From Desulfovibrio gilichinskyi (lineage in GTDB: Bacteria; Desulfobacterota; Desulfovibrionia; Desulfovibrionales; Desulfovibrionaceae), in the NCBI RefSeq assembly GCF_900177375.1, contig NZ_FWZU01000003.1, positions 372,001-436,000 of the forward strand: a DNA stretch of 64,000 bases, read 5' to 3'. The notes under the pieces were generated by a model. That model was not told the origin of the DNA and made no database searches. It worked only from the letters and a program-made list of their open reading frames with translations. The translations under genes and the position numbers were made by a program. This document shows positions 666 to 14,803 of the stretch, piece after piece; position 1 is the stretch's first letter; the number at the start of each line of letters is the position of its first letter.

Positions 666-970
666 AAAGTCCTCCTCCAGGGTGTAAATTGCTTTAAGGA
701 TGCAGCTATCTAAGCATCTACCGTGCCAAGTATTCAACTTATTAATATAATTGAGTTTATTTAAAAGAGGGTGTTTTTTTCTATTACAAATCTGTATTAA
801 TATACTTTTTTGTGTACTTTTATGTCCTACTAATTAACAAAAAAGTAATTATTTTGTTGTATGCGTTTTGCCAGACGCTCGAAATTAACAATAATCGAGT
901 ATTATATATGATAGGAAAAAAATAAATAAAGTTGTTGACTCTTTTTGGTGAGAATGGTTACGTGTTTCCT
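666..970. other. Divergent intergenic region between amt and the aromatic operon leader
   Basis: About 300 AT-rich bases without a credible gene. It holds the amt sigma-54 promoter and, nearer the aromatic operon, an imperfect dyad with arms CTCGA (878-882) and TCGAG (895-899) and an inner ATT/AAT pair. The dyad abuts the AT-rich stretch TATTATATATGATA (900-913). I could not assign a convincing -35/-10 pair for the aromatic operon; TTGCCA (868-873) with ATAATC (891-896) at 17 bp is the best candidate and would overlap the dyad. Confidence 0.5.
712..730 (-). promoter_or_regulatory. Sigma-54 promoter of amt
   Basis: On the minus strand the sequence TTGGCACGGTAGATGCTTA has GG (727-726) and GC (715-714) separated by exactly 10 bases and matches the -24/-12 consensus (TTGGCACG-N4-TTGCW) except at one or two -12 positions. 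It ends about 47 bp before the amt start codon. Sigma-54 control of amt through an NtrC-type activator is well known in proteobacteria; no activator site was identified here. Confidence 0.8.
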
Positions 971-1069
971 ATGCAAACTTTCAACACCCTGGGCGCTAGC
1001 CATTCATTTTTTTATTACTTTTACTTTTGGTGCACCCACGCTTGTGGTCGGGTGGAGGTTTGCTCGTAA
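971..1069 (+). CDS. Aromatic leader peptide of the aro-phe-tyr-trp operon
   Basis: A 32-codon reading frame, ATG at 971 to TAA at 1067-1069. Residues 13-20 are FFYYFYFW, eight aromatic codons in a row that include all three aromatic amino acids (bases 1007-1030). It ends 35 bases before a strong intrinsic terminator and about 130 bases before the first structural gene of an operon making chorismate, Phe, Tyr and Trp. This is what leader peptides of attenuated amino acid operons look like (trpL, pheL, hisL). The start is uncertain: an in-frame GTG at 962 has the better placed ribosome site (GGTGAG, 947-952), which would give 35 codons. The downstream RNA can form rival structures (see the antiterminator and terminator entries). 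The peptide is expected to act in cis through ribosome stalling and to have no function of its own. Confidence 0.85.
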   Translation: MQTFNTLGASHSFFYYFYFWCTHACGRVEVCS

Positions 1070-1116
1070 GTAATAAAAAGTCTTAGCAAACTACCTCTAC
1101 TAAAGGGCCGCAGGCG
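1039..1116 (+). promoter_or_regulatory. Antiterminator of the aromatic attenuator
   Basis: Bases 1039-1049 (CGCTTGTGGTC) can pair over 11 positions, three of them G-U, with 1106-1116 (GGCCGCAGGCG), which is the 5' arm of the terminator at 1105-1134. Nested inside, GAGGTTTGCT (1055-1064) can pair with AGCAAA...CCTC (1085-1097) with a three-base bulge. A ribosome stalled on the aromatic codons (1007-1030) leaves these segments mostly free. A ribosome that reaches the stop codon at 1067-1069 covers 1039-1064 and would release the terminator. The pairing was worked out by eye and no folding energy was computed. Confidence 0.7.
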
Positions 1117-1143
1117 ATAACTCGCCGGCGGCCCTTTTTTTTT
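1102..1143 (+). terminator. Intrinsic terminator of the aromatic attenuator
   Basis: Stem GGGCCGC plus AGGCG around the loop ATAACT, closed by CGCC and GGCGGCCC, directly followed by nine T (1135-1143). It lies between the leader peptide and the first enzyme gene, so it must be read through for expression of the operon. Confidence 0.9.
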
Positions 1144-1202: not shown

Positions 1203-2000
1203 ATGGATATCGGGAAAAAAATCAGACTTGAAAGAATTTTCAATAGAGAAACCGAAAGAACAATAATTGTTCCTATGGATCATGGTATCAGCGTCGGACC
1301 GATCGCAGGACTTGAGAATCTGCGTCAGGCTGTGGATGATATGGTCTCCGGCGGAGCCAATGCTGTTCTAGGTCACAGAGGGCTTGTCCGTTGCGGACAC
1401 CGCAGTGAAGGACAGGATGTAGGTCTTATTGTTCACCTTTCTGCAAGTACATCTCTTTCTCCCACTCCCAATGCTAAAGTTCTGGTCGGTTCTGTTGAAG
1501 ACGCTCTGCGCCGCGGTGCTGATGCCGTAAGTGTTCATGTCAATCTCGGAGATGAAAGTGAAACACAGATGCTCCGCGATCTCGGTGAAGTTTCCGCCAA
1601 GGCTACCAGTTGGGGAATGCCTGTTCTCGCTATGGTTTACGCCCGCGGTCCTAAAATTAAAAATGAATACGATCCTGAAGTTGTTGCTCATTGCGCCCGT
1701 GCCGGTGAAGAGCTTGGCGCAGATATAGTTAAAGTCTGTTACACCGGTGATCCTGAATCTTTTAGACGTGTTACTGATGGTTGTTGTATTCCGGTTGTTA
1801 TTGCAGGCGGGCCGAAGCTTGATACAACAAGGGCATTTCTCCAGATGGTTTCAGATTCAATCAGCGCAGGCGGTTCCGGTCTTTCTGTCGGGCGTAACGT
1901 TTTTCAGCATAAGAATCGCGTTAAACTGGTAAAAGCTCTCAGTAAAGTTGTTCATCAGGACGAAACTGTTGAAGCCGCTCTCGAATTTCTCGGCGAATAA
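1203..2000 (+). CDS. 2-amino-3,7-dideoxy-D-threo-hept-6-ulosonate (ADH) synthase
   Basis: A 265-residue DhnA/FbaB-type class I aldolase of the archaeal MJ0400 family, often written AroA'. The family condenses 6-deoxy-5-ketofructose 1-phosphate with L-aspartate semialdehyde, the first step of the DAHP-independent route to 3-dehydroquinate. The three catalytic positions known in MJ0400 (Asp33, Tyr153, Lys184) appear here with a constant offset of seven: Asp26 in PMDHGIS, Tyr146 in MVYARGP and the Schiff-base Lys177 in [10 protein letters not shown]. It is the first enzyme gene after the attenuator and is followed five bases later by the dehydroquinate synthase II gene, its pathway partner. A class I fructose-bisphosphate aldolase is the alternative, but the context argues strongly for ADH synthase. 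Confidence 0.93.
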
Positions 2001-2017
2001 CATAATTGGAAATAATG

Positions 2018-3001
2018 ATGAAAAAGATAATTTTTAAAGCGATTCCTTTTGATAAAGAACTTCTGACATTAGCTCTTGAGTCCGGTGTCGACGCTGTTCT
2101 TGCTGATGCTCAGCATGTCAAAGCTATTACGGAACTCGGCAGAGTTACTGTAATTACACCGGAAGATATGCCGCTTGTTTCAATTGATCAGAAAAGTGAT
2201 GAAGATATTGCGATAAATCTTGCGACGGAAGGACGTGAAGTCTGCCTTACAAAAGGGTGGGAAATTATTCCTGTAGAAAATATTCTTGCACAGGTTAAAA
2301 GTCTGGCTCTTGAGGCTGAATCTTTGGACCGTGCCAGACTTGCCGCAGGAGTTCTTGAGCGCGGAGCTGACACAATTGTTGTTTTGCCGGAAGCGGCACA
2401 TGATCTTAAGACAATTGTTGCAGAACTTAAACTCAGTCAGGGCCATATGGAATTACAAAAAGCTAAGATTACCAAAATTGAATCTGCGGGTCTCGGCCAT
2501 CGCGTCTGCGTAGATACGATCTCCATGCTAAAAAAAGGTCAGGGTATGCTGGTTGGTAATTCAAGCGGTTTTACTTTTCTTGTTCACGGTGAAACAGAAT
2601 CAAACCCTTATGTCGCGGCCCGTCCGTTCAGAGTAAATGCCGGAGCTGTGCATGCTTATGCACAAATGCCAGGAGACAGAACAACTTATTTGCAGGAACT
2701 TACTGCCGGAACCGAAGTCCTTATCGTTGATGCGACCGGAAAGACTTCTATTGCAACAGTCGGTAGGTGCAAAGTTGAAGTAAGGCCGATGCTGCTCATA
2801 ACAGCTGAAGTTGAGACTCCGCAGGGACCGGTTGTCGGTAAAGTGTTTTTGCAGAATGCAGAAACAATAAGAGTTGTAAGCGGTGAAGGCGAGCCTGTAA
2901 GCGTAGTCACAATCAAGCCCGGCGATGAAATTATGTGCCGTCTTGATGATGCTGGACGCCATTTCGGAATGCGTATTACTGAAGAGATTGTTGAGGAATA
3001 A
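2018..3001 (+). CDS. 3-dehydroquinate synthase II
   Basis: About 328 residues, related to the archaeal MJ1249 family (AroB'). This enzyme oxidatively deaminates and cyclises ADH to 3-dehydroquinate with NAD, replacing the usual AroB. Recognisable segments are the N-terminal KKIIFKAIPFDKELLTLALE, the central GMLVGNSSGFTFLVHGE and VNAGAVHAYAQMPGDRT, and the C-terminal KPGDEIMCRLDDAGRHFGM. Two adjacent ATG codons (2015, 2018) are possible starts; the second is better spaced from GGAAA at 2008-2012, and a TTG at 2006 looks unlikely. It lies between ADH synthase and pheA, and all read in one direction. Confidence 0.92.
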   Translation: MKKIIFKAIPFDKELLTLALESGVDAVLADAQHVKAITELGRVTVITPEDMPLVSIDQKSDEDIAINLATEGREVCLTKGWEIIPVENILAQVKSLALEAESLDRARLAAGVLERGADTIVVLPEAAHDLKTIVAELKLSQGHMELQKAKITKIESAGLGHRVCVDTISMLKKGQGMLVGNSSGFTFLVHGETESNPYVAARPFRVNAGAVHAYAQMPGDRTTYLQELTAGTEVLIVDATGKTSIATVGRCKVEVRPMLLITAEVETPQGPVVGKVFLQNAETIRVVSGEGEPVSVVTIKPGDEIMCRLDDAGRHFGMRITEEIVEE

Positions 3002-3005
3002 TAGA

Positions 3006-4109
3006 ATGTCAGAATCCAGCAAAAAGAATTTGAATCACTTAAGAGAAGAAATTGATACACTCGATGTTGAGATACTTGAGCTTCTCAATAAGCGAGCTGC
3101 CGCATCTCTTTCGGTAGGTAAGCTCAAAGCAGGTTCCGCAGATCAGATTTTTAAACCTTTTAGAGAGCAGGAAGTTCTCAGAGGTTTGACAGAGCGTAAT
3201 CCCGGTCCGCTTCCAAGTGAACATCTTGAGGGCATTTATCGCGAGATTATTTCTTCATCACGCAGGTTGCAGCGTCCTGAAAGAGTAGTCTATCTGGGAC
3301 CTGAAGGGACATTTTCATACTTTGCAGGATTAGAGCACATGGGACGTCAGGCTGACCTTGTCCCGAAAAATAATTTTGAAGACATTTTTGTAGCCGTTTC
3401 CAAAGGTGAAGCCGATTTAGGTATAATTCCCCTTGAAAATTCTCTAGCAGGAACAGTCGGGCAGAATGTTGATTTGTTCATGCGATACCCCGTGTATATT
3501 CAGGATGAATTGTATAGCCGTATCAGCCATGCGCTCATTACCAAAGGGGCAGGCCTGGATCAGATTAATACAGTATATTCACATATAAAAGTTTTGGAAC
3601 AGTGCGCCGGATGGTTGCGAAGCAATCTTCCTGATGTGAAGCTGGAAGCGGTTGATTCCACTGCAAAGGCGGCTTCAATGGTCGCAGAGGGTGATGATAC
3701 CTGCGCAGCTTTGGGCAACATCAAACTGGCTAATATTTTCGGACTTCATGTTGTGTCCGAAGCTGTAGAAGATTTTCCGGATAACTGGACAAGATTTTTA
3801 ATAATCGGCCCTAAACCGGGAATCGAAGGTAAAAGGGATAAAACAACTATTCTTTTCACCACTCCTGATCAGCCGGGAGCATTAGTCGGTGTTCTTAATG
3901 TTCTCTCCGGCAAAGATATTAATATGACTAAACTGGAATCCCGTCCTTTTCTCGGTGAAAAATGGAAGTATATGTTTTTTGTAGATCTTCAGGGCGATCT
4001 CAGCACTGAGGAATATGAAAGCATCATTGATGAACTCAGGTCACGCTGTCTTACTTTTAAAATTCTGGGAAGTTATCCAAGCGGATCACAGAACGGAAGT
4101 AGACTTTAG
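3006..4109 (+). CDS. pheA: Bifunctional chorismate mutase / prephenate dehydratase (P-protein)
   Basis: About 367 residues in three parts. Residues 1 to about 90 are a type II chorismate mutase helix bundle (LREEIDTLDVEILELLNKRA). The prephenate dehydratase domain follows, from YLGPEGTFSYFA through DLGIIPLENSLAGTVGQNVD. The C-terminal ACT domain carries TKLESRPF, the ESRP motif that binds phenylalanine for feedback inhibition. The ATG at 3006 is preceded by GAGGAA at a good distance and lies just past the upstream stop; longer in-frame starts would overlap the previous gene by about 80 bases. The enzyme converts chorismate to phenylpyruvate. Confidence 0.96.
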   Translation: MSESSKKNLNHLREEIDTLDVEILELLNKRAAASLSVGKLKAGSADQIFKPFREQEVLRGLTERNPGPLPSEHLEGIYREIISSSRRLQRPERVVYLGPEGTFSYFAGLEHMGRQADLVPKNNFEDIFVAVSKGEADLGIIPLENSLAGTVGQNVDLFMRYPVYIQDELYSRISHALITKGAGLDQINTVYSHIKVLEQCAGWLRSNLPDVKLEAVDSTAKAASMVAEGDDTCAALGNIKLANIFGLHVVSEAVEDFPDNWTRFLIIGPKPGIEGKRDKTTILFTTPDQPGALVGVLNVLSGKDINMTKLESRPFLGEKWKYMFFVDLQGDLSTEEYESIIDELRSRCLTFKILGSYPSGSQNGSRL

Positions 4110-4144
4110 TTCTTACAACTATTTTTAAAAAAAGGAATAAACGG

Positions 4145-5479
4145 ATGACTTCCGATAATGTAATAAAAATCAAGGCTCCTTCATCAAAGTCCATGTCTCA
4201 TAGAGCTCTTATTGCGGGGGCTTTTTCAGACGGACAGACTGTGGTGCTTGATCCTTTGGACAGTAACGATATCAATAGGACTATGGACTGCCTTTCCACC
4301 ATGGGCGCACAGTTTGATGTTGAGCAGAATTCTACTACCGTTACAGGTATGCATGATGGTCCGCACGGCGGCGTAAAAGAACCGGCTGTCCTTGAAATGA
4401 GAGATTCAGGAACTACATGCAGGCTTATCACAGCAATTGCAGGAGCTGGAAAAGGAGTTTTCCGCATTCAGGGAACGCCCAGAATGCATGATCGTCCTAT
4501 CGGAGAACTTACCAAAGCTCTTGAGTCGCAGGGCGTAAAAGTTACTTTTGCCGATAAAAACGGATATCCGCCTGTAACACTTGAATCTAACGGCTTTATC
4601 GGCGGTAATATTGAAATATCTCTTGAAGAAAGCAGCCAGTATCTTTCAGGCCTACTGCTGGCTGCCCCGTATGCACATAAAACAACTGTGATTAAAGTTG
4701 TAGGTAAAAAAGCTGTTTCATGGCCGTATGTTGCATTGACTCTTAAGGTTATGGAAGATTTTAAAATTTCATTTTCGGTAGAAGCTCTTAAGAACGGAGA
4801 GTGGAAAAAGACAAACTGGAGAAAAGTCTCTAAAGTTGTCCCCGGTGAAATACGATTTCGCGTGAATCCTTCTGATTACAAAAAAGACAATTATGAAGTT
4901 GAAGGTGACTGGAGTAACGGATCTTATTTTTTAGCTGCCGGAGCGGTTGGAACTAAACCAGTCAGGGTTAAAGGGCTTGCGATTGACTCCTTGCAGGGGG
5001 ACCGGGCAATTATTGATATTTTGAAAGCTATGGGCGCGAAGATAGAAAGCGACTCTTTCGGAGTGACAGTTTATCCTTCAAAGTTACATGGAGTTGAAGT
5101 CGATATGGGGCTGTGTCCGGATCTTGTTCCGACCGTAGCAGTTGCAGCCGCTTTTGCTGACAGTCCCACAACTATAACTAATGTAGCCCATTTGCGGATT
5201 AAAGAATGTGATAGGCTCGATGCCAGTGCTACTGAAATAATAAGAGCAGGCGGCAAAGCCGAGATCGGGGATGATTTTATTAAAATTTTTCCTGCACCGC
5301 TGAAAAAAGGTGAAAAAATAATTTTTTCGACATATGACGATCATAGACTGGCAATGAGTACAGCTATTTTCAGCTTAGCCGGAATTGACGCTGTTGCTAA
5401 GGAACCGGAATGTGTTGCAAAGTCGTTCCCTGAGTTCTGGAAGGAATGGGATAAAGTTAAAAAGGGGAATGGTTGCTAA
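4145..5479 (+). CDS. aroA: 5-enolpyruvylshikimate-3-phosphate synthase
   Basis: 444 residues, the usual length for EPSP synthase. Both ends are diagnostic: APSSKSMSHRALIAGAFSDG near the start, DSGTTCRLITAIAGA around residue 85, RIKECDRLDA and DDHRLAMSTAIFSLAG near the end. It joins shikimate 3-phosphate and PEP in the step before chorismate synthase. A purine-rich stretch (AAAAAAAGGAATAA) precedes the ATG. The next gene begins within or right after its stop codon, which points to coupled translation. The remaining shikimate genes (aroD, aroE, aroK, aroC) are not in this window. Confidence 0.96.
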   Translation: MTSDNVIKIKAPSSKSMSHRALIAGAFSDGQTVVLDPLDSNDINRTMDCLSTMGAQFDVEQNSTTVTGMHDGPHGGVKEPAVLEMRDSGTTCRLITAIAGAGKGVFRIQGTPRMHDRPIGELTKALESQGVKVTFADKNGYPPVTLESNGFIGGNIEISLEESSQYLSGLLLAAPYAHKTTVIKVVGKKAVSWPYVALTLKVMEDFKISFSVEALKNGEWKKTNWRKVSKVVPGEIRFRVNPSDYKKDNYEVEGDWSNGSYFLAAGAVGTKPVRVKGLAIDSLQGDRAIIDILKAMGAKIESDSFGVTVYPSKLHGVEVDMGLCPDLVPTVAVAAAFADSPTTITNVAHLRIKECDRLDASATEIIRAGGKAEIGDDFIKIFPAPLKKGEKIIFSTYDDHRLAMSTAIFSLAGIDAVAKEPECVAKSFPEFWKEWDKVKKGNGC

Positions 5480-5480
5480 C

Positions 5481-6257
5481 ATGGAATCTGACTTTAGCAA
5501 AATTCATAGTATTGCCGTAGTCGGTTCAAGAGGGCAGATGGGAGGGTTTCTGGCCCTTAAAGCCGAGCGGGCAGGATTGCTTGTCCATCGGTTTGATCAG
5601 CCTCTTGATGAGAAAGAAATGGCACGCCTCCTTCCCGTGAGCGATCTCGTTCTTTTATGTATTCCGGTAACGGTTATGGATGAGGTGCTTGATAAAATTG
5701 TTCCTCACATGAAAAAAGGATCTGTTTTATCAGACGTAGGATCTGTAAAAGGGCGTCCGTTGCAGCAGATGGTCAGAGCTTATGACGGTCCTGTTGTAGG
5801 AACTCACCCTTTATTCGGTGCCACTATTCCTGTTGATTTTGAGCCGACTGTTGCTCTTGTTGCAGGAAGGGAAGAAGACAAAGGCGCGCTTGAGTCTGTT
5901 AAAGATTTTTATAAACGGTTAGGATTCGGCGCATTCGCATCAACTGAAGAAGAACATGACCGGGCAATGGCAATGATTCAAAGTTTAAATTTTAGTTCCA
6001 CCATAGCTTTTTTAGCATGTGCGAGAGAACTGCCTAACATTGAAAAATTTGTGACTCCGTCATTTAGACGCAGGCTTGAGTCCGCGCGTAAAATGGTGAC
6101 ACAGGATAGTGACCTTTTTGTAACTATTTCTGATGCAAATCAGTATAGCCTTGAAGCTATTCGTCTTTTCCGTTCTTTCCTCAGCCTTGCTGCATCCGGT
6201 GATATGGACCTTCTTTCCGAACGTGCTTCTTGGTGGTGGCGTGAAAACAATACCTAG
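5481..6257 (+). CDS. tyrA: Prephenate dehydrogenase
   Basis: About 258 residues with an N-terminal Rossmann fold (AVVGSRGQMGGF), then SDLVLLCIPV, SVLSDVGSVKG and GTHPLFGATIP, all typical of TyrA. It oxidatively decarboxylates prephenate to 4-hydroxyphenylpyruvate for tyrosine synthesis. No chorismate mutase or ACT domain is fused, so the mutase activity must come from the P-protein two genes upstream. Two starts are possible: ATG 5469, overlapping aroA, or ATG 5481. The AAGGGG site at 5462-5467 is very close to the first and rather far from the second. A strong terminator follows. Confidence 0.88.
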   Translation: MESDFSKIHSIAVVGSRGQMGGFLALKAERAGLLVHRFDQPLDEKEMARLLPVSDLVLLCIPVTVMDEVLDKIVPHMKKGSVLSDVGSVKGRPLQQMVRAYDGPVVGTHPLFGATIPVDFEPTVALVAGREEDKGALESVKDFYKRLGFGAFASTEEEHDRAMAMIQSLNFSSTIAFLACARELPNIEKFVTPSFRRRLESARKMVTQDSDLFVTISDANQYSLEAIRLFRSFLSLAASGDMDLLSERASWWWRENNT

Positions 6258-6280
6258 GGAGAACTGTATTTAAAAAAGTA

Positions 6281-6316
6281 AAGCCGCATTCTCCCCAGAG
6301 GATGCGGCTTTTTTTA
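6281..6316 (+). terminator. Intrinsic terminator between tyrA and trpE
   Basis: Perfect seven-base stem GCCGCAT (6283-6289) / ATGCGGC (6302-6308) followed by seven T. It splits the long operon into a chorismate/Phe/Tyr half and a Trp half. A possible -10 GATAAT (6338-6343) sits just before trpE, but I see no convincing -35, so an internal trp promoter is only a possibility. Confidence 0.85.
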
Positions 6317-6371
6317 TATTTAGCGTTTTTTGTAAGTGATAATTTAAAAAATTTAAAAGGGAGCAGGAGAT

Positions 6372-7784
6372 ATGAAAATTGAATTGACTCAGTACGGCAA
6401 ATGGTTGCCAGCTGACGTGCAAACGCCGATCAGTCTTTACCTCGGGCTGGTTGGAAATGCACCGGGAATACTTTTAGAAAGTGCCGAAGTTGACGGAAGA
6501 CTTGGACGATACAGTCTTATCGCCTGGGATTTCAGACTTGTTCTGTCTCCAGTTCGCGGTAAATTATCTGTAGAATGTGCGGATTCTCGTCTTGCGGGGC
6601 TTGCTCAGTATTCAGGCATGGATTTTCTGGAAGGTCTTAGGGCTGTGATGAAAGCTCTGCATTTGAATCCTCAGGAGGAAGTAGGTCCACTGCCTGCTTT
6701 GACAAGAGGGCTTTACGGAACATTCGGCTATGGTCTTGCGGGAATGCTTGAACCGAAGCTGGCTGATAAAATCCCGGCGAAAGATGCCGAGGTCCGCTTG
6801 GCTCTACCTGGGCGGGTTGTTTTGTTTGATCACTTAAAACACCGTTGCTGTTTTCTTTCTCTTGATGAAGGAGCAAAGCCGGAATTCACTCCGCAGGACT
6901 TTAACAGCAAATGTGAGCCTACTGTCGTAGGTGAGCCTGTAGCTGTCCCCGGACGTGAAAAGTACATGGAAAATGTTCAAAAAGTGCGGGAATTGATTGC
7001 GGAAGGAGAGTGTATTCAGGTGGTTCTTTCCACCCGTTTCTCAGCTCCTTTCAGCGGTAATTCTTTCGATCTTTATCGCCGTCTCAGGCAGGCAAATCCA
7101 TCTCCTTTTATGTTTTACATGAAATTCAGCCGTGAAGAAATCCTGCTCGGTTCATCACCTGAAATGATGGCCCGCTGTGAACGGGGCAGGCTTGAAGTAC
7201 GCCCCATCGCCGGAACCCGTCCAAGGGGTAAAAATGCTGCTGAAGACAGAAAATATACTGCAGAGCTTCTTGCAGATCCTAAAGAAAGGGCTGAACACGT
7301 AATGCTTGTCGACCTTGGACGTAATGATCTTGGACGTATTGCCAAGCCCGGTTCTGTCACCGTTGAGAAGTTTATGCAGGTTGAATATTTCAGCCACGTT
7401 ATGCACATGACTTCATATGTAGAAGCTGATCTGCGTGACGAGTATGATGCAATTGATGTTCTGCAGGCAACTTTTCCGGCAGGAACTCTTTCCGGTGCTC
7501 CAAAAATTAGAGCAATGGAAATAATTTCTGAGCTTGAAGAAGTGCCTCGCGGTCCTTACGGCGGAGCAATCGGTTTTATAGGTCTGGATAAGGATTCAAT
7601 CAATCTTGATACAGGAATCACTATCCGTTCAATGTGGATCAGAGACGGTAAGTGTCATTGGCAGGCCGGAGCCGGACTGGTTTACGATTCCGATCCTGAA
7701 ATGGAATGGAAAGAATGTAACAATAAGGCAAGAGTTTTAAGAGAAATTTTGCAATCGGAGGGCGGCGATGTTTTTGCTTGTTGA
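6372..7784 (+). CDS. trpE: Anthranilate synthase component I
   Basis: 470 residues of the chorismate-utilising family. The N-terminal LLESAEVDGRLGRYSLI contains the LLES element that binds tryptophan for feedback inhibition. The catalytic domain shows LLGSSPEMMARCERGRL, EVRPIAGTRPRG, HVMHMTSYVEADL and FPAGTLSGAPKIRAMEI, all standard for TrpE. It makes anthranilate from chorismate using ammonia supplied by TrpG. The next gene starts 17 bases before its end, so the two subunits are translationally coupled. Confidence 0.97.
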   Translation: MKIELTQYGKWLPADVQTPISLYLGLVGNAPGILLESAEVDGRLGRYSLIAWDFRLVLSPVRGKLSVECADSRLAGLAQYSGMDFLEGLRAVMKALHLNPQEEVGPLPALTRGLYGTFGYGLAGMLEPKLADKIPAKDAEVRLALPGRVVLFDHLKHRCCFLSLDEGAKPEFTPQDFNSKCEPTVVGEPVAVPGREKYMENVQKVRELIAEGECIQVVLSTRFSAPFSGNSFDLYRRLRQANPSPFMFYMKFSREEILLGSSPEMMARCERGRLEVRPIAGTRPRGKNAAEDRKYTAELLADPKERAEHVMLVDLGRNDLGRIAKPGSVTVEKFMQVEYFSHVMHMTSYVEADLRDEYDAIDVLQATFPAGTLSGAPKIRAMEIISELEEVPRGPYGGAIGFIGLDKDSINLDTGITIRSMWIRDGKCHWQAGAGLVYDSDPEMEWKECNNKARVLREILQSEGGDVFAC

Positions 7785-8340
7785 TAATTTTGATTCGTTC
7801 ACATTCAATCTGGTTCAGGCTTTTCAGCAGCTCGGAGCTGATCCGCTTGTACTGAGAAATGATCGCGAGGAAATTCTGGAGCTTGCTGAATCCGGAAAGC
7901 TTAAAATGGTCTGCCTTTCCCCGGGGCCGAGCAATCCTGAAAACGCAGGACTCAGTCTTGAGTTTCTGGCCAGACTTCCTAAAGAAATTCCTGTTCTGGG
8001 AGTTTGTTTAGGGCATCAGACTATCGGCCATTTTGCAGGAGCTTCCGTTGTGCGTGCGGGCCGCATTATGCATGGTAAAACTTCAATGATTTATCACAAT
8101 AATGATGGACTGTTCAGCGGACTAGATAATCCTTTTGAAGTCTGCCGTTACCACTCTTTAGTAGTGAATGTTGATGAAGCTCCTGATCTTCTGGAACTGA
8201 CCGCATGGACTGATCAGCAGGAAGTCATGGGGCTTCGCTATAAAGATCGCCCTTGGGCTGGAGTTCAGTTTCATCCGGAGTCTATTTTAACTCCTGACGG
8301 ACCGAAACTTTTGAAGAACTTCCTTGAGGGAAATATTTAA
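7768..8340 (+). CDS. trpG: Anthranilate synthase component II (glutamine amidotransferase)
   Basis: 190-residue class I glutamine amidotransferase. Cys80 in GVCLGHQTIGHFAGA is the nucleophile, and FHPESIL near the C-terminus carries the catalytic His-Glu pair. The N-terminal LLVDNFDSFTFNLVQ is typical of TrpG/PabA. It overlaps trpE by 17 bases. It ends without a fused TrpD domain, unlike the enterobacterial TrpGD. Context makes the tryptophan role clear, though a shared role in folate synthesis is possible. Confidence 0.96.
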   Translation: MFLLVDNFDSFTFNLVQAFQQLGADPLVLRNDREEILELAESGKLKMVCLSPGPSNPENAGLSLEFLARLPKEIPVLGVCLGHQTIGHFAGASVVRAGRIMHGKTSMIYHNNDGLFSGLDNPFEVCRYHSLVVNVDEAPDLLELTAWTDQQEVMGLRYKDRPWAGVQFHPESILTPDGPKLLKNFLEGNI

Positions 8341-8376
8341 TCAACCATCATTAATCTAAGGGATAGGGTTAGTAAA

Positions 8377-9366
8377 ATGGCGGACTGTGTAACCTCGGCT
8401 CTGACAGAGCTTACTTTCGGCAGAGACCTTTCAACAGAGCTGGCGGATTGTGTCTTTACCTCCCTTTTTGCAGGGGAAATATCTCCAGTACAGGCCGGAG
8501 CTCTGCTCATGGGGCTTAGGGTAAAAGGAGAGACTGCAACGGAAGTAGCTTCAGGCGTAAAAGCAGCACTTAAAGAATCTAAACTTGTTAAAGGGTTGAG
8601 CGGGCAGCTTATAGATACATGCGGAACAGGCGGTGACGGCAGTAACAGCTTTAACTGTTCAACCGCCGTGGCTCTGTATCTGGCAGATATGGGCTATAAG
8701 GTAGTTAAACACGGGAATAGAGCGGTATCTTCTTCCTGCGGTAGCGCGGATATTCTTGAAGAGCTTGAAATTCCTATAACGACTGTGGCCGAAGATGTTC
8801 CTGACGTTCTAGGACGTGACAATTTTGTCTTCCTCTTTGCTCCTAATTACCATCCTGCTTTCGGGAAAGTCGCACCGATCAGAAAAGAACTCGGTATTCC
8901 GACTCTTTTCAACCTCATGGGGCCGCTTTTAAATCCTGCCCGTCCGACGCACCAGATCCTTGGTGTCGGCAGACCTGAAATAATGCGCCTTATGGCGGAA
9001 GTTCTGACTTTGACGGATGTTGGCAGGGCTTACGTTGTGCATGGAGCAGGTAATTTTGATGAGCTGACTCCTTTCGGTATTAATAAAGCTGTTCTTGTAG
9101 AAAACGGAAAACTCACTGAACTTGAAATTGATCCTGCTGATTATGGCTTCACTCTTTCAACTCCTGCGGATGTAGCAGTTACAGACCGTAAAAATGCAGG
9201 AGAAACTATCCGTAAGATTCTAACCGGAAAAGCTCCTCAACCTATGCTTGATATGGTTGCACTAAATCTCGGGGCCGCACTTTCACTGCTTGATGGAATC
9301 AGCCTTGCTGACGGTATTGCAAAAGCAAAATCAAAAGTCGCAGTCGGCGTCAGCAAGGAGTATTAG
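8377..9366 (+). CDS. trpD: Anthranilate phosphoribosyltransferase
   Basis: 329 residues. [17 protein letters not shown] binds the PRPP pyrophosphate, and [20 protein letters not shown] is the second substrate loop, both typical of Trp[14 protein letters not shown] and [14 protein letters not shown] are also conserved. It transfers phosphoribose to anthranilate. It lies 36 bases after trpG and three bases before trpC in the same operon. Confidence 0.97.
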
Positions 9367-9369
9367 GAG

Positions 9370-10161
9370 ATGCTTGAGAAGTTTCGTATAGCCAAACAAA
9401 GCGAAGTGGATATGCTACGTAATGCTGAATCGAAGGGGATTCTGCCCGATCCTTATGCCGGAGTTCGCCCTTCATTTGCCGACGCGATCAGGCGTGATGG
9501 TTCAGGTATGAAAGTTATTGCCGAATATAAACGGGCTTCACCTTCCAAAGGTGATATCAATCTCGGACTGACTGCTGCCGAGGTGGCAAATATGTATGCC
9601 GGAGGCGGAGCTTCTGCAATTTCAGTTTTAACAGAAGAGCAGTATTTTAAAGGTAATATCGCTTATTTAGACGAAATAAAATCTTGCGGACTGCCGATGC
9701 TTCGCAAAGATTTTCTGGTTGATCCGCTCCAGATTGTGCAGACCGCGTCAACTCCTGCTTCAGCACTATTAATTATAGTACGCATGTTTACTGACGACGG
9801 GCTGCTGAAGGAAATGATTGATAAAACTCATGAAGCCGGACTTGACGGCGTTGTTGAGGCTTTTGATATGGCTGACCTTATGCGGGCTAAAAAAGCCGGA
9901 GCGCGAGTAATTCAGATTAACAACCGCGACCTTGATACTCTGGGAATCGACATGAGCAGGTCGGTAGATTTTATCAAGGAACGTGATGACAGCGAAATCT
10001 GGATTTGTGCCAGCGGCATTAATGAACCGGATGATTGCGTAAAAATGGCAGAACTCGGTTATGACAGCGTGTTAGTCGGTACATCCATAATGTCGAGCCC
10101 AAGCCCGCAGGATAAACTGAGTTCGTTAGTCGCGGGAGCTAAGTGTGGAGCTTTGCGATGA
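9370..10161 (+). CDS. trpC: Indole-3-glycerol phosphate synthase
   Basis: 263-residue TIM barrel. Signature IAEYKRASPSKGDI near residue 55, LRKDFLVDPLQI at strand 3, IQINNRDLDTL, and the C-terminal SVLVGTSIM phosphate site. It closes the indole ring. It is a stand-alone enzyme, not fused to TrpF as in enterobacteria. AAGGAG at 9355-9360 is well placed for the ATG at 9370. Its TGA overlaps the trpF ATG (ATGA). Confidence 0.96.
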   Translation: MLEKFRIAKQSEVDMLRNAESKGILPDPYAGVRPSFADAIRRDGSGMKVIAEYKRASPSKGDINLGLTAAEVANMYAGGGASAISVLTEEQYFKGNIAYLDEIKSCGLPMLRKDFLVDPLQIVQTASTPASALLIIVRMFTDDGLLKEMIDKTHEAGLDGVVEAFDMADLMRAKKAGARVIQINNRDLDTLGIDMSRSVDFIKERDDSEIWICASGINEPDDCVKMAELGYDSVLVGTSIMSSPSPQDKLSSLVAGAKCGALR

Positions 10162-10796
10162 ATATGCTTATTAAAGTTTGCGGCATGACCAGAAAGGAAG
10201 ATGTGGCAAGTTGCGAAGAGCTTGGCGCTGATTTTCTGGGGTTCATTTTTCATCCTTCCAGCCCGCGGTGTGTGGATGCGGAATTTGCCCGTTCTGTTGA
10301 GCTTTCCACAGCTGAAAAAGTTGGTGTGTTTGTAAAGCAGAGCGCAACTGAAGTGCTTGAAACTATGAAGAATGGAAAACTTAATTTCGCACAGCTTCAC
10401 GGCGGACAGAATGAAGAGTTTTGTAAAGCTGTCGGCAGGGAGCGAGTGATAAAAGTGCTCTGGCCTCAGCGGTATGATTCGGTAAAGGAGTTTCAGGATG
10501 ATATTGATCGGTATACACCTTTTTGCCGCTATATGCTTTTTGATGCCGGAAGTTCCGGCGGCGGGCATGGCAAACCGCTCGATTTTTCAGTTTTTTCAGA
10601 AGTTAAAATTCCGAACCCGTGGCTTTTAGCCGGGGGGCTTTCAGCAAAAAATCTGCTTGAAGCCATAAGCAGTGCAAAGCCTAGTGGTGTTGATTTGAAT
10701 TCCGGTGTGGAAGTCAGCCCCGGCATTAAAGATATAAATAAATTGAGTGCAGCTTTTGTTTCAGTGCACTTAGCAAATAAGAGGAACCAGTCATGA
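10158..10796 (+). CDS. trpF: Phosphoribosylanthranilate isomerase
   Basis: About 212 residues. KVCGMTRKEDV at the N-terminus holds the catalytic Cys, followed by GFIFHPSSPR, AQLHGGQNEEF and LAGGLSAKNL with a phosphate-binding end. It performs the Amadori rearrangement before TrpC. The ATG at 10158 overlaps the trpC stop and has GGAG eight bases upstream; a GTG at 10143 is less likely. It overlaps trpB by four bases. Confidence 0.95.
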   Translation: MNMLIKVCGMTRKEDVASCEELGADFLGFIFHPSSPRCVDAEFARSVELSTAEKVGVFVKQSATEVLETMKNGKLNFAQLHGGQNEEFCKAVGRERVIKVLWPQRYDSVKEFQDDIDRYTPFCRYMLFDAGSSGGGHGKPLDFSVFSEVKIPNPWLLAGGLSAKNLLEAISSAKPSGVDLNSGVEVSPGIKDINKLSAAFVSVHLANKRNQS

Positions 10797-11971
10797 AAAG
10801 AGGATACTTTGGAGATTTCGGCGGACAGTTTGTACCGGAGCTGCTTATGCCTCCGCTGCTTGAGCTTGAAGAGGACATGGGCAAAATTTTAAAGTCGGCT
10901 GAATTCCAACAGGAATTTACCAGTTTGCTTACAAACTTTGTCGGTCGTCCTACAGCTCTTACTCATTGTGCTAATCTTTCACGTGATCTCGGTTTCAACC
11001 TCTGGCTGAAACGTGAAGATCTAGCTCATACAGGTGCTCATAAAATCAACAACACAGTAGGGCAGGCGTTGTTGACAAAGATGATGGGTAAACCACGGAT
11101 GATAGCTGAAACAGGAGCAGGTCAGCATGGGGTTGCAACCGCGACAGCCGCAGCACTTCTTGATCTTGAGTGTGAAATTTATATGGGCGCAGTTGACGTT
11201 AAACGTCAGTCTCACAATGTTCGCCGCATGGAGCTTTTCGGAGCGAAGTGCATTCCGGTTGAATCCGGCACACGAACTTTAAAAGACGCAATAAACGCAG
11301 CACTTCGCATGTGGATCGCAAATCAGCGCACTACTCATTATTGCTTCGGAACAGCTGCCGGACCGCATCCGTTCCCGCTTCTCGTAAGAGAATTCCAGTC
11401 TGTAATCGGTCGCGAAGCAAAACAGCAGTTTAAAGAGCGTACAGGTGAGATGCCGTACATGGTAGTTGCCTGCGTAGGCGGAGGCTCTAATGCAATCGGT
11501 ATGTTCCATGAATTTGTGAATGAAAAATCCGTTAAAATTGTGGGAGTAGAAGCTGCCGGAACAGGTGAACCCGGATGTTTTAATTCCGCTCCGATTAACC
11601 TTGGAACTCCCGGCGTTCTGCATGGAGCGCACTCTCTGTTGTTGCAGTCAGAGGACGGACAGATACTTCCATCCCATTCCATTTCCGCCGGACTTGATTA
11701 CCCTGGAGTAGGGCCTGAGCATGTTCATCTTCATGCATCCGGAAGAGTCCAGTATGGAATGGCTAACGACAGTCAGGCTATAAATGCTTTTAAGATGCTT
11801 TGCCATAATGAAGGTATTCTTCCTGCTCTTGAAAGTTCTCACGCTGTCGCATGGGCAATCGAGAACAAAGATTCTATTCCTAAAGGTGCAAACGTAATAG
11901 TTAACCTTTCCGGTCGCGGCGATAAAGATATGGATATTTTTGAAGATTACCTCAAGCAGCACGGAAAATAG
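10793..11971 (+). CDS. trpB: Tryptophan synthase beta chain
   Basis: 392 residues of the pyridoxal-phosphate fold II family. Lys84 in LAHTGAHKINNTVGQ is the Schiff-base lysine. ETGAGQHGVATAT, CVGGGSNAIGMFHEF (PLP phosphate loop) and the C-terminal NLSGRGDKDMDIF are all conserved. N-terminal GYFGDFGGQFVPELLMPPL identifies the canonical TrpB1 type rather than TrpB2. It condenses indole with serine. Its start overlaps the trpF stop by four bases. Confidence 0.98.
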   Translation: MKRGYFGDFGGQFVPELLMPPLLELEEDMGKILKSAEFQQEFTSLLTNFVGRPTALTHCANLSRDLGFNLWLKREDLAHTGAHKINNTVGQALLTKMMGKPRMIAETGAGQHGVATATAAALLDLECEIYMGAVDVKRQSHNVRRMELFGAKCIPVESGTRTLKDAINAALRMWIANQRTTHYCFGTAAGPHPFPLLVREFQSVIGREAKQQFKERTGEMPYMVVACVGGGSNAIGMFHEFVNEKSVKIVGVEAAGTGEPGCFNSAPINLGTPGVLHGAHSLLLQSEDGQILPSHSISAGLDYPGVGPEHVHLHASGRVQYGMANDSQAINAFKMLCHNEGILPALESSHAVAWAIENKDSIPKGANVIVNLSGRGDKDMDIFEDYLKQHGK

Positions 11972-11984
11972 CGGAGCAAATAAA

Positions 11985-12752
11985 ATGAGTATTACAACAC
12001 TTGCCGATAAAATAAATGAAGCTAATGCAAAGGGGCGCACAGCTCTTATTCCTTTTCTTCCCGGTGGATATCCTGACAAAGAAAAATTCTGGAAAGAAAT
12101 TCTTGAACTGGATGCCAACGGCGCGGACATAATCGAAATAGGAATGCCTTTTTCCGATCCTGTTGCTGACGGTCCTGTTGTTGAAGCTGCTTCCCTTAAA
12201 TGCCTTGATGCCGGAGTTAATCTGAAGTGGATTCTTGAAGGTTTGGCAAAGGTCCGCTCGCAGATAAATGCAGGAATCGTGCTCATGGGATATTACAACC
12301 CGGTACTTCAATACGGCCTTGAAAAGTTTGCAAAGGATGCCAACGCTGCGGGTGTAAACGGTTTGATTATTGCCGATTTGCCTTACGAAGAAGGTGTTGA
12401 ATTCCGTGATTTACTTGTCAAAAACGAAGTAGCTCTAGTCCCGCTGGTAGGGCTTAACACATCCCCTGAACGTATGAAACTTTACGCAGATGGTGGGAAC
12501 GGTTTCTGTTATTTTGTTTCGGTGCTTGGAACAACCGGTGATCGTGATTCATTGCCTGAAGAAATTAAGGTCGGCCTTAAGCACGCAAAAGAAATATTTA
12601 ATATTCCTGTCGCTCTTGGGTTCGGGCTGAAACATCCGTCACAGCTAACGCAGCTTGAAGGGCTGGTTGACGCGGCAGTGTTCGGTTCTGCTCTTATACG
12701 TCATCTTGATGATGGGAAAAGTTGTGCTGAATTTATGAAGGTTTGGAAGTAG
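11985..12752 (+). CDS. trpA: Tryptophan synthase alpha chain
   Basis: About 255 residues. IEIGMPFSDPVADGPVVE holds the catalytic Glu, and LPYEEGVEFRDLL, VLGTTGDRDSLP and ALGFGLKHPSQL are typical. It cleaves indole-3-glycerol phosphate and channels indole to TrpB. The ATG at 11985 follows GGAG and lies 13 bases after the trpB stop; longer in-frame starts lie inside trpB. It is the last gene of the operon. Confidence 0.97.
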   Translation: MSITTLADKINEANAKGRTALIPFLPGGYPDKEKFWKEILELDANGADIIEIGMPFSDPVADGPVVEAASLKCLDAGVNLKWILEGLAKVRSQINAGIVLMGYYNPVLQYGLEKFAKDANAAGVNGLIIADLPYEEGVEFRDLLVKNEVALVPLVGLNTSPERMKLYADGGNGFCYFVSVLGTTGDRDSLPEEIKVGLKHAKEIFNIPVALGFGLKHPSQLTQLEGLVDAAVFGSALIRHLDDGKSCAEFMKVWK

Positions 12753-12851: not shown

Positions 12852-13514
12852 TTAATTTTTGTTGGTAGGTTTTGTCTTTTTAATCATGTCAATTAGTTTT
12901 GGCATTTCAGTCATGGGATTTGTCAAAGGAACATGCGAAGTTATTCTGCTTGCGTAAGGTAAAAGGTGCCCAGTTGTATCTAAATTATTGCAGTTATTTA
13001 TTGCTGATTCTAAATTAGCACAGAATATTTCTGCTTCTTGCCTATTTCTGGGCATTGGCTTTTCATAGATACTATATTTCTGTTTTAGAAAATTTTCTGC
13101 TTCTGTCGCATTCATGAATGACTTTGCTCTTTCAGCAAAATGCAAAATATACCAATATTCAATTGAGGGATAATTAAAGAATACAGCCCATTTTGTTTTT
13201 TTGTTTGAAAGTTTTTTGGCTGAATTTTGCAGTGTAATGAGACTGTTAATCTTGGTTTCTGATAATTGTGTATTTTCAAGATCTGTTAAAAAAAATACAG
13301 CGTCAAAACTCGTAGGACATATTTGAATATGTTTTTGCGCAGCTTCAATTGAATTTAGTTTTCTTGCATCTATTTTTATGGTGTTCGATTTAGATGAAAC
13401 ACAGCTGTTCAAAACATATTTCGCGTAGTTTATTTCCGTCTTTCCATCACAAATTAATAAAATATTTATATTTTGGCGGCGCTGATTTTTTGGTGTGATC
13501 TTTGGACGTGCCAT
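12852..13514 (-). CDS. RloB-like protein (putative TOPRIM-type nuclease)
   Basis: 220 residues. ICDGKTEINYAKYV (21-34) corresponds to the N-terminal (C/V)EGxTE motif of RloB/OLD TOPRIM domains, here with Asp in place of the first Glu. FFLTDLEN (75-82) sits where the acidic DxD-like motif is expected. NYPSIEYWYILHF (114-126) matches the RloB signature NPxFExWxLLHF, and NPMTEMPKLIDMI is the usual C-terminal motif. Its ATG shares one base with the stop of the ATPase gene upstream (TAATG), so the two are coupled. RloB partners of RloA-type ATPases occur in restriction-modification loci and resemble the OLD and PARIS families. A defence role is inference. The gene is AT-richer than its surroundings. 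Confidence 0.8.
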   Translation of the reverse strand: MARPKITPKNQRRQNINILLICDGKTEINYAKYVLNSCVSSKSNTIKIDARKLNSIEAAQKHIQICPTSFDAVFFLTDLENTQLSETKINSLITLQNSAKKLSNKKTKWAVFFNYPSIEYWYILHFAERAKSFMNATEAENFLKQKYSIYEKPMPRNRQEAEIFCANLESAINNCNNLDTTGHLLPYASRITSHVPLTNPMTEMPKLIDMIKKTKPTNKN

Positions 13515-14803
13515 TATAAGCCACCGTCCCAGTCGACCTCTGGAACTGCGCCGAATCGCCCATCAAGGTAATCTTTATAAAGTTTTTGTCCGCGATCATT
13601 TTTAGCGACTGACCCAACGCCCTTAAATTCAGACAGGCTGAAAAGCCTTGTTTCAAAGGTTTCTTTATCCTTTTCAGTAAAATAAATTTCGTCTGGGCGG
13701 AGTAGGGTTTTGTCCATGACGGTTACGTCGTGGGTTGCAAAAATTAATTGTGCGCCATTGGGGTTTGTTTCTTTATTCGTGAATAGTTGGATTATCTTTC
13801 GGACTAGGTAGGGGTGCAAGGCACTGTTAAATTCGTCAAGAATCAGCTGTGTTCCCATTTTAAGTGACATAATGATTGAACTTGATATATTGAAAATTGT
13901 TTGGGTTCCATTTGATTCCTCATTCTGCAAATCTAATGAGGTTTTATTACCGTGAATGTCTAGATGTATAAAATTTGTTGTTAACAGTGAATTGAACCAT
14001 TTATCAGGAGAATTCAAAACATATTCCTCGATGGGAGTATTTTTCTTAGAATTATTCTTTTTTTTAAATGAAATGTCATGGATATTAATATCAGCAGATT
14101 TTAGAAGAGAAATGATTTGCTCTTTTTCAATGACTTTAGAGTTAACAACATTAGCTGTAATTAAACTAGGGAAGTTAGCAGTGTGAGATATTAGCAACCT
14201 GTTAAACCATGTAGTAATATCCTTAAATGTCGATATTTCACCTTTGTTATCTAAATATGCAAGAGCTGTTTGTTGGTTATTAATCTCCGCTTTCCACATA
14301 TCTAGAAATTTTTTTTGTGGGTGGATTGAACGGTGAAGATCTATCTTGTTTTGTTTCCTGTTAATAAGGATTACTTCCCTTGCTCCTTTTGTGTTGGGAA
14401 TTACAGTCAATTTTTCACGGATAATTTTTTCTGGAACAAGTTCAAGCCAATATTGATACATATGCCCATTTATAGCGGTGAATTTTGTCCTGAAACAAGT
14501 TGGCTTGTTGGTGTAGATCGGATTTAAGCGGAAGCGGTTGTCTTCAAATAAGTCATCTTTTTGTCTAAGGGCAGAAGTTTGAATAATTTCTTTCAAGGAA
14601 GACAATGCCTTCAAAATATTACTCTTCCCAGAAGCATTAGCTCCCAAAATTGCAACACAAGGCAAAGCTTCCGGCTCACGTTTAATACCTGTCTGCAAGA
14701 TGTTATAGTTATCATCTTTTTTGCTCTTAATAGCCGGCTGCATATATAAAGTCTGCTCTTCTCCGATAGAACGAAAATTAGCGACACTGAATTCTAATAA
14801 CAT
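13514..14803 (-). CDS. RloA-like AAA/ABC-type ATPase
   Basis: 429 residues of the SMC/OLD-like ATP-binding family. N-terminal LLEFSVANFRSIGEEQTL, Walker A GANASGKS (54-61), an ABC-like signature EESNGTQTIF (295-304), Walker B LILDEFNSALHP (320-331) and a switch histidine in FATHDV (355-360). The middle (about 110-290) is a variable helical insert. With the downstream RloB-like protein it forms a two-gene ATPase/TOPRIM-like module. OLD, PARIS AriA/AriB and Septu are other ATPase-nuclease pairs of this general build, with which it should not be equated without a profile search. Two dyads lie upstream of the start. Its AT-rich composition between the trp operon and a two-component locus suggests acquisition by transfer. 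Confidence 0.82.
   Translation of the reverse strand: MLLEFSVANFRSIGEEQTLYMQPAIKSKKDDNYNILQTGIKREPEALPCVAILGANASGKSNILKALSSLKEIIQTSALRQKDDLFEDNRFRLNPIYTNKPTCFRTKFTAINGHMYQYWLELVPEKIIREKLTVIPNTKGAREVILINRKQNKIDLHRSIHPQKKFLDMWKAEINNQQTALAYLDNKGEISTFKDITTWFNRLLISHTANFPSLITANVVNSKVIEKEQIISLLKSADINIHDISFKKKNNSKKNTPIEEYVLNSPDKWFNSLLTTNFIHLDIHGNKTSLDLQNEESNGTQTIFNISSSIIMSLKMGTQLILDEFNSALHPYLVRKIIQLFTNKETNPNGAQLIFATHDVTVMDKTLLRPDEIYFTEKDKETFETRLFSLSEFKGVGSVAKNDRGQKLYKDYLDGRFGAVPEVDWDGGL

Follow-up and report, generated by a model that had tools for sequence, protein, structure and literature searches.

The closest described relatives of the element reported here are the leader peptide attenuators of Escherichia coli. 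In trpL, a short leader with codons for the product of the operon precedes mutually exclusive antiterminator and terminator structures, and the outcome depends on whether the ribosome stalls in the leader or is released, a logic that the present element would match; trpL senses Trp alone, through two codons, whereas the leader analysed here has codons for Phe, Tyr and Trp. The pheL attenuator, also located on an aromatic operon, has Phe codons and senses Phe alone. The leader of ilvGMEDA, ilvL, combines in one peptide Leu, Val and Ile codons, the three end products being related, and exerts three-way control; it is the precedent for multi-input sensing, with other amino acids and another RNA, and the view in the initial annotation that known leaders sense one or two amino acids is accordingly too strong. 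We know of no family of code-swapped ilvL copies. The rnTrpL/peTrpL attenuator of Sinorhizobium meliloti responds to Trp only. Attenuators in the proteobacteria were reportedly surveyed in 2004.

The kind of device is therefore known (trpL, pheL, ilvL), and an attenuator at the corresponding operon of Desulfovibrio vulgaris was already listed in 2005: a database-derived table gives a putative attenuator before aroA'>aroB'>aroQ-pheA>aroF>tyrA>[trp operon] (PMC1173090, Table 7). The operon type and the position are shared with the present locus, and the Nitratidesulfovibrio members of our set (L172, L173) have the leader, whereas Table 7 and its context describe neither a leader peptide with its codon run nor the conservation or the mechanism of the element. 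Among the titles and abstract openings of the open literature (subscription literature lay outside the search), we found no Phe-Tyr-Trp leader, no order-wide conservation and no code-swapped copies.

The locus

The window, i.e. the whole 64,000-base stretch that was analysed, contains at 1203-12752 a 12-gene operon for Phe, Tyr and Trp synthesis, preceded by what we read, with a probability of roughly 0.9, as a ribosome-mediated transcription attenuator with three inputs. The reading builds on computed properties, namely the leader, the stems and their exclusivity, covariation, conservation of the three-residue code and the fit between the code and the controlled gene. The features of the locus are as follows.

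935-964, + strand: predicted promoter, -35 TTGACT (935-940), spacer of 18, -10 TACGTG (959-964), start predicted at or close to the A of the leader ATG
971-1069, + strand: leader peptide ORF, 32 codons, MQTFNTLGASHSFFYYFYFWCTHACGRVEVCS (ORF reading; similar leaders in relatives)
1007-1030, + strand: sensor, eight consecutive aromatic codons FFYYFYFW (sole run of at least five in the window)
1039-1049, + strand: antiterminator 5' strand (R2), where the leader ORF encodes Ala-Cys-Gly (folding, covariation)
1051-1064, + strand: nested antiterminator stem, 5' strand, ending two bases before the leader stop codon (folding)
1085-1101, + strand: nested antiterminator stem, 3' strand, bulge at 1090-1092 (folding)
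1106-1116, + strand: R3, partner of R2 (antiterminator) or of the 3' arm of the terminator (folding, covariation)
1102-1142, + strand: intrinsic terminator, stem 1102-1137, U-run to 1142 (folding; relatives; R3:R4 covariation)
1203-2000, + strand: ADH synthase (2-amino-3,7-dideoxy-D-threo-hept-6-ulosonate synthase), gene 1 of the operon (TIGR01949 above the cut-off)
2036-6257, + strand: DHQ synthase II, chorismate mutase-prephenate dehydratase (pheA), EPSP synthase (aroA), prephenate dehydrogenase (tyrA)
6372-12752, + strand: trpE, trpG, trpD, trpC, trpF, trpB, trpA

The gene content of the 12 genes agrees with the earlier proposal that the operon covers all three aromatic amino acids. The next gene upstream of the leader, for an ammonium transporter, is divergent and lies on the opposite strand, so that the terminator at 1102-1142 can act only on the operon's own transcript; a role as the terminator of an upstream gene is thereby ruled out. 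On the other side of the trp operon, at 12852-14803 on the - strand, lie genes for an RloB-like protein and an AAA ATPase that match the PADLOC models AbiLii and AbiLi and, judging by these matches, likely form an AbiL anti-phage defence pair.

The leader and the alternative RNA structures

The 32-codon leader at 971-1069 and its eight aromatic codons at 1007-1030 were recovered exactly as initially annotated, in positions and in residues. FFYYFYFW is the sole run of at least five consecutive Phe, Tyr or Trp codons in all six frames of the 64,000 bases. The antiterminator RNA (1033-1118), when folded alone, has an energy of -33.9 kcal/mol (z -4.0, with none of 200 shuffles as low), and the terminator (RNA 1080-1143 folded) consists of 15 bp within 1102-1137 at -28.7 kcal/mol (z -5.4, none of 200 shuffles), followed by U's. 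The 11 bp between 1039-1049 and 1106-1116 that had been proposed from the sequence were found by folding. The segment 1106-1116 is common to the antiterminator and the terminator, which makes the two structures mutually exclusive. Two elements of the earlier description were extended: the proposed nested stem (1055-1064/1085-1097) is present and is longer, 1051-1064 pairing with 1085-1089 and 1093-1101, and the proposed terminator (1105-1134) is the core of a stem that spans 1102-1137. The leader stop codon (1067-1069) closely follows the 5' strand of the nested stem, towards the loop.

A simple automatic scan of the window reported no terminators, probably because a one-base mismatch splits the stem. 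No Rfam family, the T-box included, matched the window at gathering score; the pheL model (Phe_leader, RF01859) reached just 16 bits against a cut-off of 55 and Trp_leader was not listed up to E 5. A T-box or another known RNA family is ruled out by this absence of matches at the cut-off.

Conservation of the three-residue code

ADH synthase genes were searched in 98 relatives (91 matched), in 395 genomes of the phylum (106 at E 1e-80), in 247 genomes of the family (230 at E 1e-80) and on named contigs, where the best 80 loci were kept. The matches were examined in part: 30 loci and 94 further listed places from the search of the 98 relatives, 28 new loci from the phylum search, the 80 named-contig loci, and 12 loci and six listed places from the family search; 53 further stretches supplied downstream genes for loci already in the set. 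The resulting 304 loci correspond to 226 distinct ADH synthase genes, and the 450 nt upstream of each were scanned for short ORFs. The set contains 84 trp-containing operons, i.e. 83 and that of the window, whose own locus in the set was too short to show trp.

An upstream short ORF with at least 6 aromatic codons among 8 consecutive ones precedes all 84 trp-containing operons examined, compared with 2 of 84 on the antisense strand and 1 of 840 shuffles. A chance run of T-rich codons is ruled out by these controls and by the six-frame uniqueness of the run in the window. Phe, Tyr and Trp codons occur together in the run in all 84, such that the aromatic run, the conservation of which in relatives had been named as a check of the proposal, is retained along with its three-residue composition. 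The order of the codons varies (YFFWYFYF, FYFWYWF, FSQYWYYWF and others) and the composition is constant; variants in the genus of the window include FFYYFYFW, YFYFFYFW and YFFYFFYFW.

The combination of a strongly aromatic peptide with Ala-Cys-Gly-like residues conserved after the run would also fit nascent-peptide arrest of the TnaC type, in which the peptide senses the free amino acid in the exit tunnel rather than tRNA charging. We consider this very improbable: it is the composition of the run that is conserved and not the order of the residues, the pairing of R2 accounts for the Ala-Cys-Gly segment and, presumably, a biosynthetic operon needs to sense shortage rather than excess.

Aromatic leaders before ADH synthase also occur elsewhere in the phylum (L229, L132, L133, L147-L152), for instance in Candidatus Desulfofervidaceae; several of these have a Shine-Dalgarno (SD)-like sequence and a longer gap to the terminator, and they probably represent a different RNA chassis.

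Covariation of the two stems

Leaders were retained for alignment if they had the run, a terminator of -12 kcal/mol or lower and R2 near the run; 159 passed this filter. Thinning at 80% identity reduced them to 95, and the alignment comprises 93 of these, all except L148 and L230. In these 93 sequences, the selection of which by predicted terminator and by a duplex close to the run leans towards pairing, 94.1% of the R2:R3 cells are standard pairs (36-44% in slid versions), with 37 double changes versus 12.3 in shuffled alignments, and 92.6% of the R3:R4 cells are paired (25-66% in slid versions), with 63 double changes versus 11.3. For both helices, the covariation exceeds all 500 shuffles and all slid controls. 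The compensatory changes that the initial annotation asked for in the two stems are thus present, with 6 of the 11 pairs of R2:R3 and 11 of the 13 pairs of R3:R4 altered on both sides.

The energy of the R2:R3 duplex beats shuffles at p≤0.05 in 75 of 79 operons, and a terminator hairpin of -9 kcal/mol or lower with a U-run was detected in 79 of the 83 other trp-containing operons. The scanner missed the terminator in the remaining four, three of which (L047, L173, L195) have the leader approximately 400 nt upstream; L172, a relative with the same leader as these three, has a hairpin of -30.4 kcal/mol. The nested stem is supported in only 41 of 78 cases, in which the segment separating R2 from R3 has a better fold than its shuffles (p≤0.05).

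Ribosome position and the switch

The effect of the ribosome was modelled by folding the RNA outside an assumed footprint, before the 3' arm of the terminator is made. Of the 79 operons modelled, R2:R3 forms in 79 when the ribosome stands on the first aromatic codon, in 79 for the middle codon and in 75 for the last one, and in none when the ribosome has reached the stop codon (for the window, 0.84, 0.84 and 0.89 versus 0.00). The model is consistent with the geometry predicted at the outset, in which a stalled ribosome would spare the antiterminator and a ribosome at the stop codon would destroy it. Together with an ORF that contains codons for the products, a terminator before the first gene and a covarying antiterminator, this modelled stall geometry matches what is expected of an attenuator.

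Some details count against the reading. In the window, the run ends with the Trp codon, and the footprint of a ribosome stalled on it would extend into the first bases of R2. Furthermore, the mean probability that R3 has any upstream partner, which is 0.87, 0.87 and 0.58 for the three stalls, remains 0.29 with the ribosome at the stop codon (0.42 in the window); by the same measure, E. coli trpL yields 0.62 for the stall and 0.01 for the stop. In the model without a ribosome, the mean is 0.82 here versus 0.30 in trpL, and R2:R3 forms in 71 of 79 operons, so that the 1:2 protector stem of trpL is lacking by this model. This sets the element apart from the trpL subtype and not from ribosome-mediated attenuators in general, which need no such stem. 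The untranslated leader is therefore predicted to be read through, opposite to E. coli trp, and poor initiation of the leader would leave the operon on.

Once the transcript is complete, the terminator prevails on average even if a ribosome is stalled in the leader (mean p(R3:R4) 0.83-0.90), which implies that the switch would be decided during RNA synthesis, as in trp. This strength of the terminator is what one would expect of a plain constitutive terminator, or of a leader that performs no regulatory switching. Such an interpretation is the least probable of those weighed here, given that R2 covaries with R3, the aromatic run is conserved, the geometry fits and the code agrees with the gene.

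For the three-input attenuator, we infer the following sequence of events, from the transcription start through ribosome stalling to termination in the cell. RNA polymerase would start at or beside the leader AUG, and the first ribosome would translate the leader. A shortage of charged tRNA for Phe, Tyr or Trp would stall the ribosome within 1007-1030, R2 would pair with R3, the terminator would be blocked and the 12-gene operon would be read, which amounts to OR logic. With all three plentiful, the ribosome would reach the stop codon and occupy the nested stem together with the end of R2. This would leave R3 to pair with its 3' arm, and transcription would end at about 1138-1142.

Start of the RNA

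At a distance of 26-46 nt ahead of the leader's ATG, a TTGAC motif was seen in 80 of the 84 trp-containing operons, in 24 of the 27 stand-alone ADH synthase genes and in 4 of the 29 trp-less operons (4/84, 0/27 and 1/29, respectively, in a control window). When the leaders are aligned on the -35 element, a TA at +24/+25 and a C preceding the ATG are conserved, which puts the predicted start at or close to the A of that ATG. The full -10 element is weak (4 of 6 positions in 25 of 84), as is the TACGTG of the window, and the promoter scan of the window is near chance, with 4 found and 2.0 expected; the other candidates upstream are at 868-895 and 885-912. SD-like sequences precede 5 of 84 leaders of trp-containing operons, 7 of 27 stand-alone and 15 of 29 trp-less ones, compared with 151 of 175 ADH synthase genes themselves. 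These sequence features suggest that initiation is likely leaderless in most of the trp-containing and stand-alone leaders, with the AUG at the predicted start, whereas trpL has its own 5' UTR. In S. meliloti, the transcript of the rnTrpL attenuator is reported to begin at its 5' end with the leader ATG, i.e. to be leaderless, in the part of the source that concerns it (PMC7298713); there, the start is reported and here it is predicted.

The leader code and the controlled gene

Operons were classified as trp-less when DHQ synthase was present and no trpE was found in at least 8 kb of downstream sequence. Excluded from the comparison of types were five second genes of ADH synthase tandems (the upstream sequence of which lies inside the first ADH synthase), four genes for which little upstream sequence was available, 10 that were not assigned to a type and 34 operons in which the trp status was not seen; 32 of these 34 have a run (23 with Phe, Tyr and Trp, eight with Phe and Tyr, one with Phe and Trp).

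A run of at least 5 of 8 precedes 32 of the 33 trp-less operons (22 with all three residues, 10 with Phe and Tyr) and 27 of the 56 stand-alone ADH synthases (8 Phe only, 2 Tyr only, 13 Phe and Tyr, 4 all three). The lack of such a run before the other 29 of the 56 stand-alone genes is a point against the reading. When runs of 4 are counted, 23 of 38 stand-alone leaders consist to at least 80% of one residue, compared with 0 of 84 and 0 of 33 for the two types of operons. A Trp codon is present in 84 of 84 trp-containing operons versus 22 of 32 trp-less operons (Fisher P 8e-7, uncorrected for kinship) and versus 4 of 27 stand-alone genes with a run (Fisher P 5e-20, likewise uncorrected). The code does not strictly track gene content since 22 of the 32 trp-less operons retain the Trp codon. 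In a tree of 128 ADH synthase proteins (FastTree), the Phe-dominated and the Tyr-dominated labels require 5 changes each, with at least 3 changes of either label on starred branches. The sensor codons in relatives thus often differ in step with the controlled gene.

These comparisons bear on the possibility that mainly one or two amino acids are sensed and that the other codons in the run came about through T-richness or through Phe/Tyr interchange by single base changes. The codons for Phe and Tyr are one base apart and interchange within the genus, and Trp contributes just 17.5% of the aromatic codons in trp-containing operons. T-richness, however, yields no Trp codons, and yet Trp is present in all 84 of these operons and rare in the stand-alone leaders; pure-Phe, Tyr-dominated and Trp leaders occur elsewhere. 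Restricted sensing therefore appears unlikely, and we retain the reading in which all three amino acids are sensed.

E. coli trp has TrpR, whereas none of the 17 genomes of the window's genus contains TrpR (PF01371). TrpR regulons are treated in PMC5343134.

Copies of the RNA before other genes

The attenuator before the operon would be one member of a modular family: a common RNA chassis, fitted with different codon runs, precedes different genes. A covariance model of the leader RNA matches 91 of 96 relatives at E 0.01; the window's own genome has one strong copy, and the next match scores 20 bits. From the listing produced with this model, 20 places away from ADH synthase were examined.

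Twelve of the 20 (L335-L342, L344, L345, L347, L350) precede one kind of sodium:solute symporter (SSF; PF00474 for L339, the others by the same N-terminal sequence), and 11 of these 12 leaders are Phe-rich (e.g. YFFFFFFNF), with L344 mixed Phe/Tyr. When the symporter was followed by its protein at 26 loci, Phe-dominated leaders were found at 11 and no aromatic leader at nine (L372-L374, L378, L380, L381, L383-L385); four loci of two genomes gave two Tyr-dominated leaders, each read from both tandem genes, and two (L369, L386) were read inside a neighbouring gene. Two genomes of a single genus have the Tyr-rich leader MNSYFYAYYGYR ahead of SSF symporters arranged in tandem (L379/L387 and L382/L388). 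Judging by the leaders, the symporter is a candidate transporter of aromatic amino acids, mostly Phe.

At another six of the 20 places, the gene behind the leader encodes a TRAP-type binding protein (PF03480 for L348); the leader is Trp-rich in five of them (e.g. WWWQWW) and has a single Trp in L346. A scan of 30 TRAP loci, in three of which the gene start was not found, yielded a Trp-rich leader (at least two Trp side by side or a similar pattern, by visual inspection with no shuffle control) in 13 of 27; the TRAP copy in the window's own genome (L403) has no Trp-rich leader. Trp-rich leaders before TRAP-type binding proteins were seen at L343, L348, L351, L352, L354 and L389-L394, at L343 together with TRAP permease-like genes. 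The codes make the TRAP system behind such leaders a candidate for the uptake of tryptophan or indole compounds.

The remaining two of the 20 places precede trpE with Trp leaders (Pfam for L349 only). A test on separate trpE genes, set before the data were gathered, used a genus in which the ADH synthase operon lacks trp (8 genomes checked). A Trp-rich short ORF, recognised from the short ORFs alone and not by the RNA model, precedes trpE in 19 of 20 regions, 14 with WWW and five with two Trp; the remaining region, cut at 248 nt, has none. The five two-Trp cases (L432, L435-L438) are weaker because an unrelated second ORF with two Trp occurs in 8 of the 20 regions. Many of the WWW leaders before trpE (L419-L438) end in an RGGDVRA-like segment, and they are perhaps carried on an RNA chassis other than the one modelled.

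Implications

We lean towards a wider reading, in which a leaderless, default-on, re-codable attenuator chassis has been copied across the aromatic network of the Desulfovibrionales, with a Phe-Tyr-Trp code for the all-in-one operon, Phe or Tyr for the stand-alone ADH synthase isozymes, Phe or Tyr for the symporter, and Trp for the TRAP transporter and separate trp genes, and does the work that in E. coli falls to TrpR/TyrR and the feedback-regulated DAHP synthase isozymes. If the three-input reading is correct, one attenuator watches all three aromatic amino acids for an operon that contains all three end branches. The modular family would be the larger finding and the one most worth testing. 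It would constitute a natural experiment, in which repeatedly changed codes on one scaffold predict the role of the isozyme or transporter behind each leader, in the present data a symporter for Phe and a TRAP system for Trp. Codon swaps could serve to test the rules that govern sensor specificity. For the biology of this group of bacteria, the attenuator family suggests how aromatic synthesis may be regulated without TrpR.
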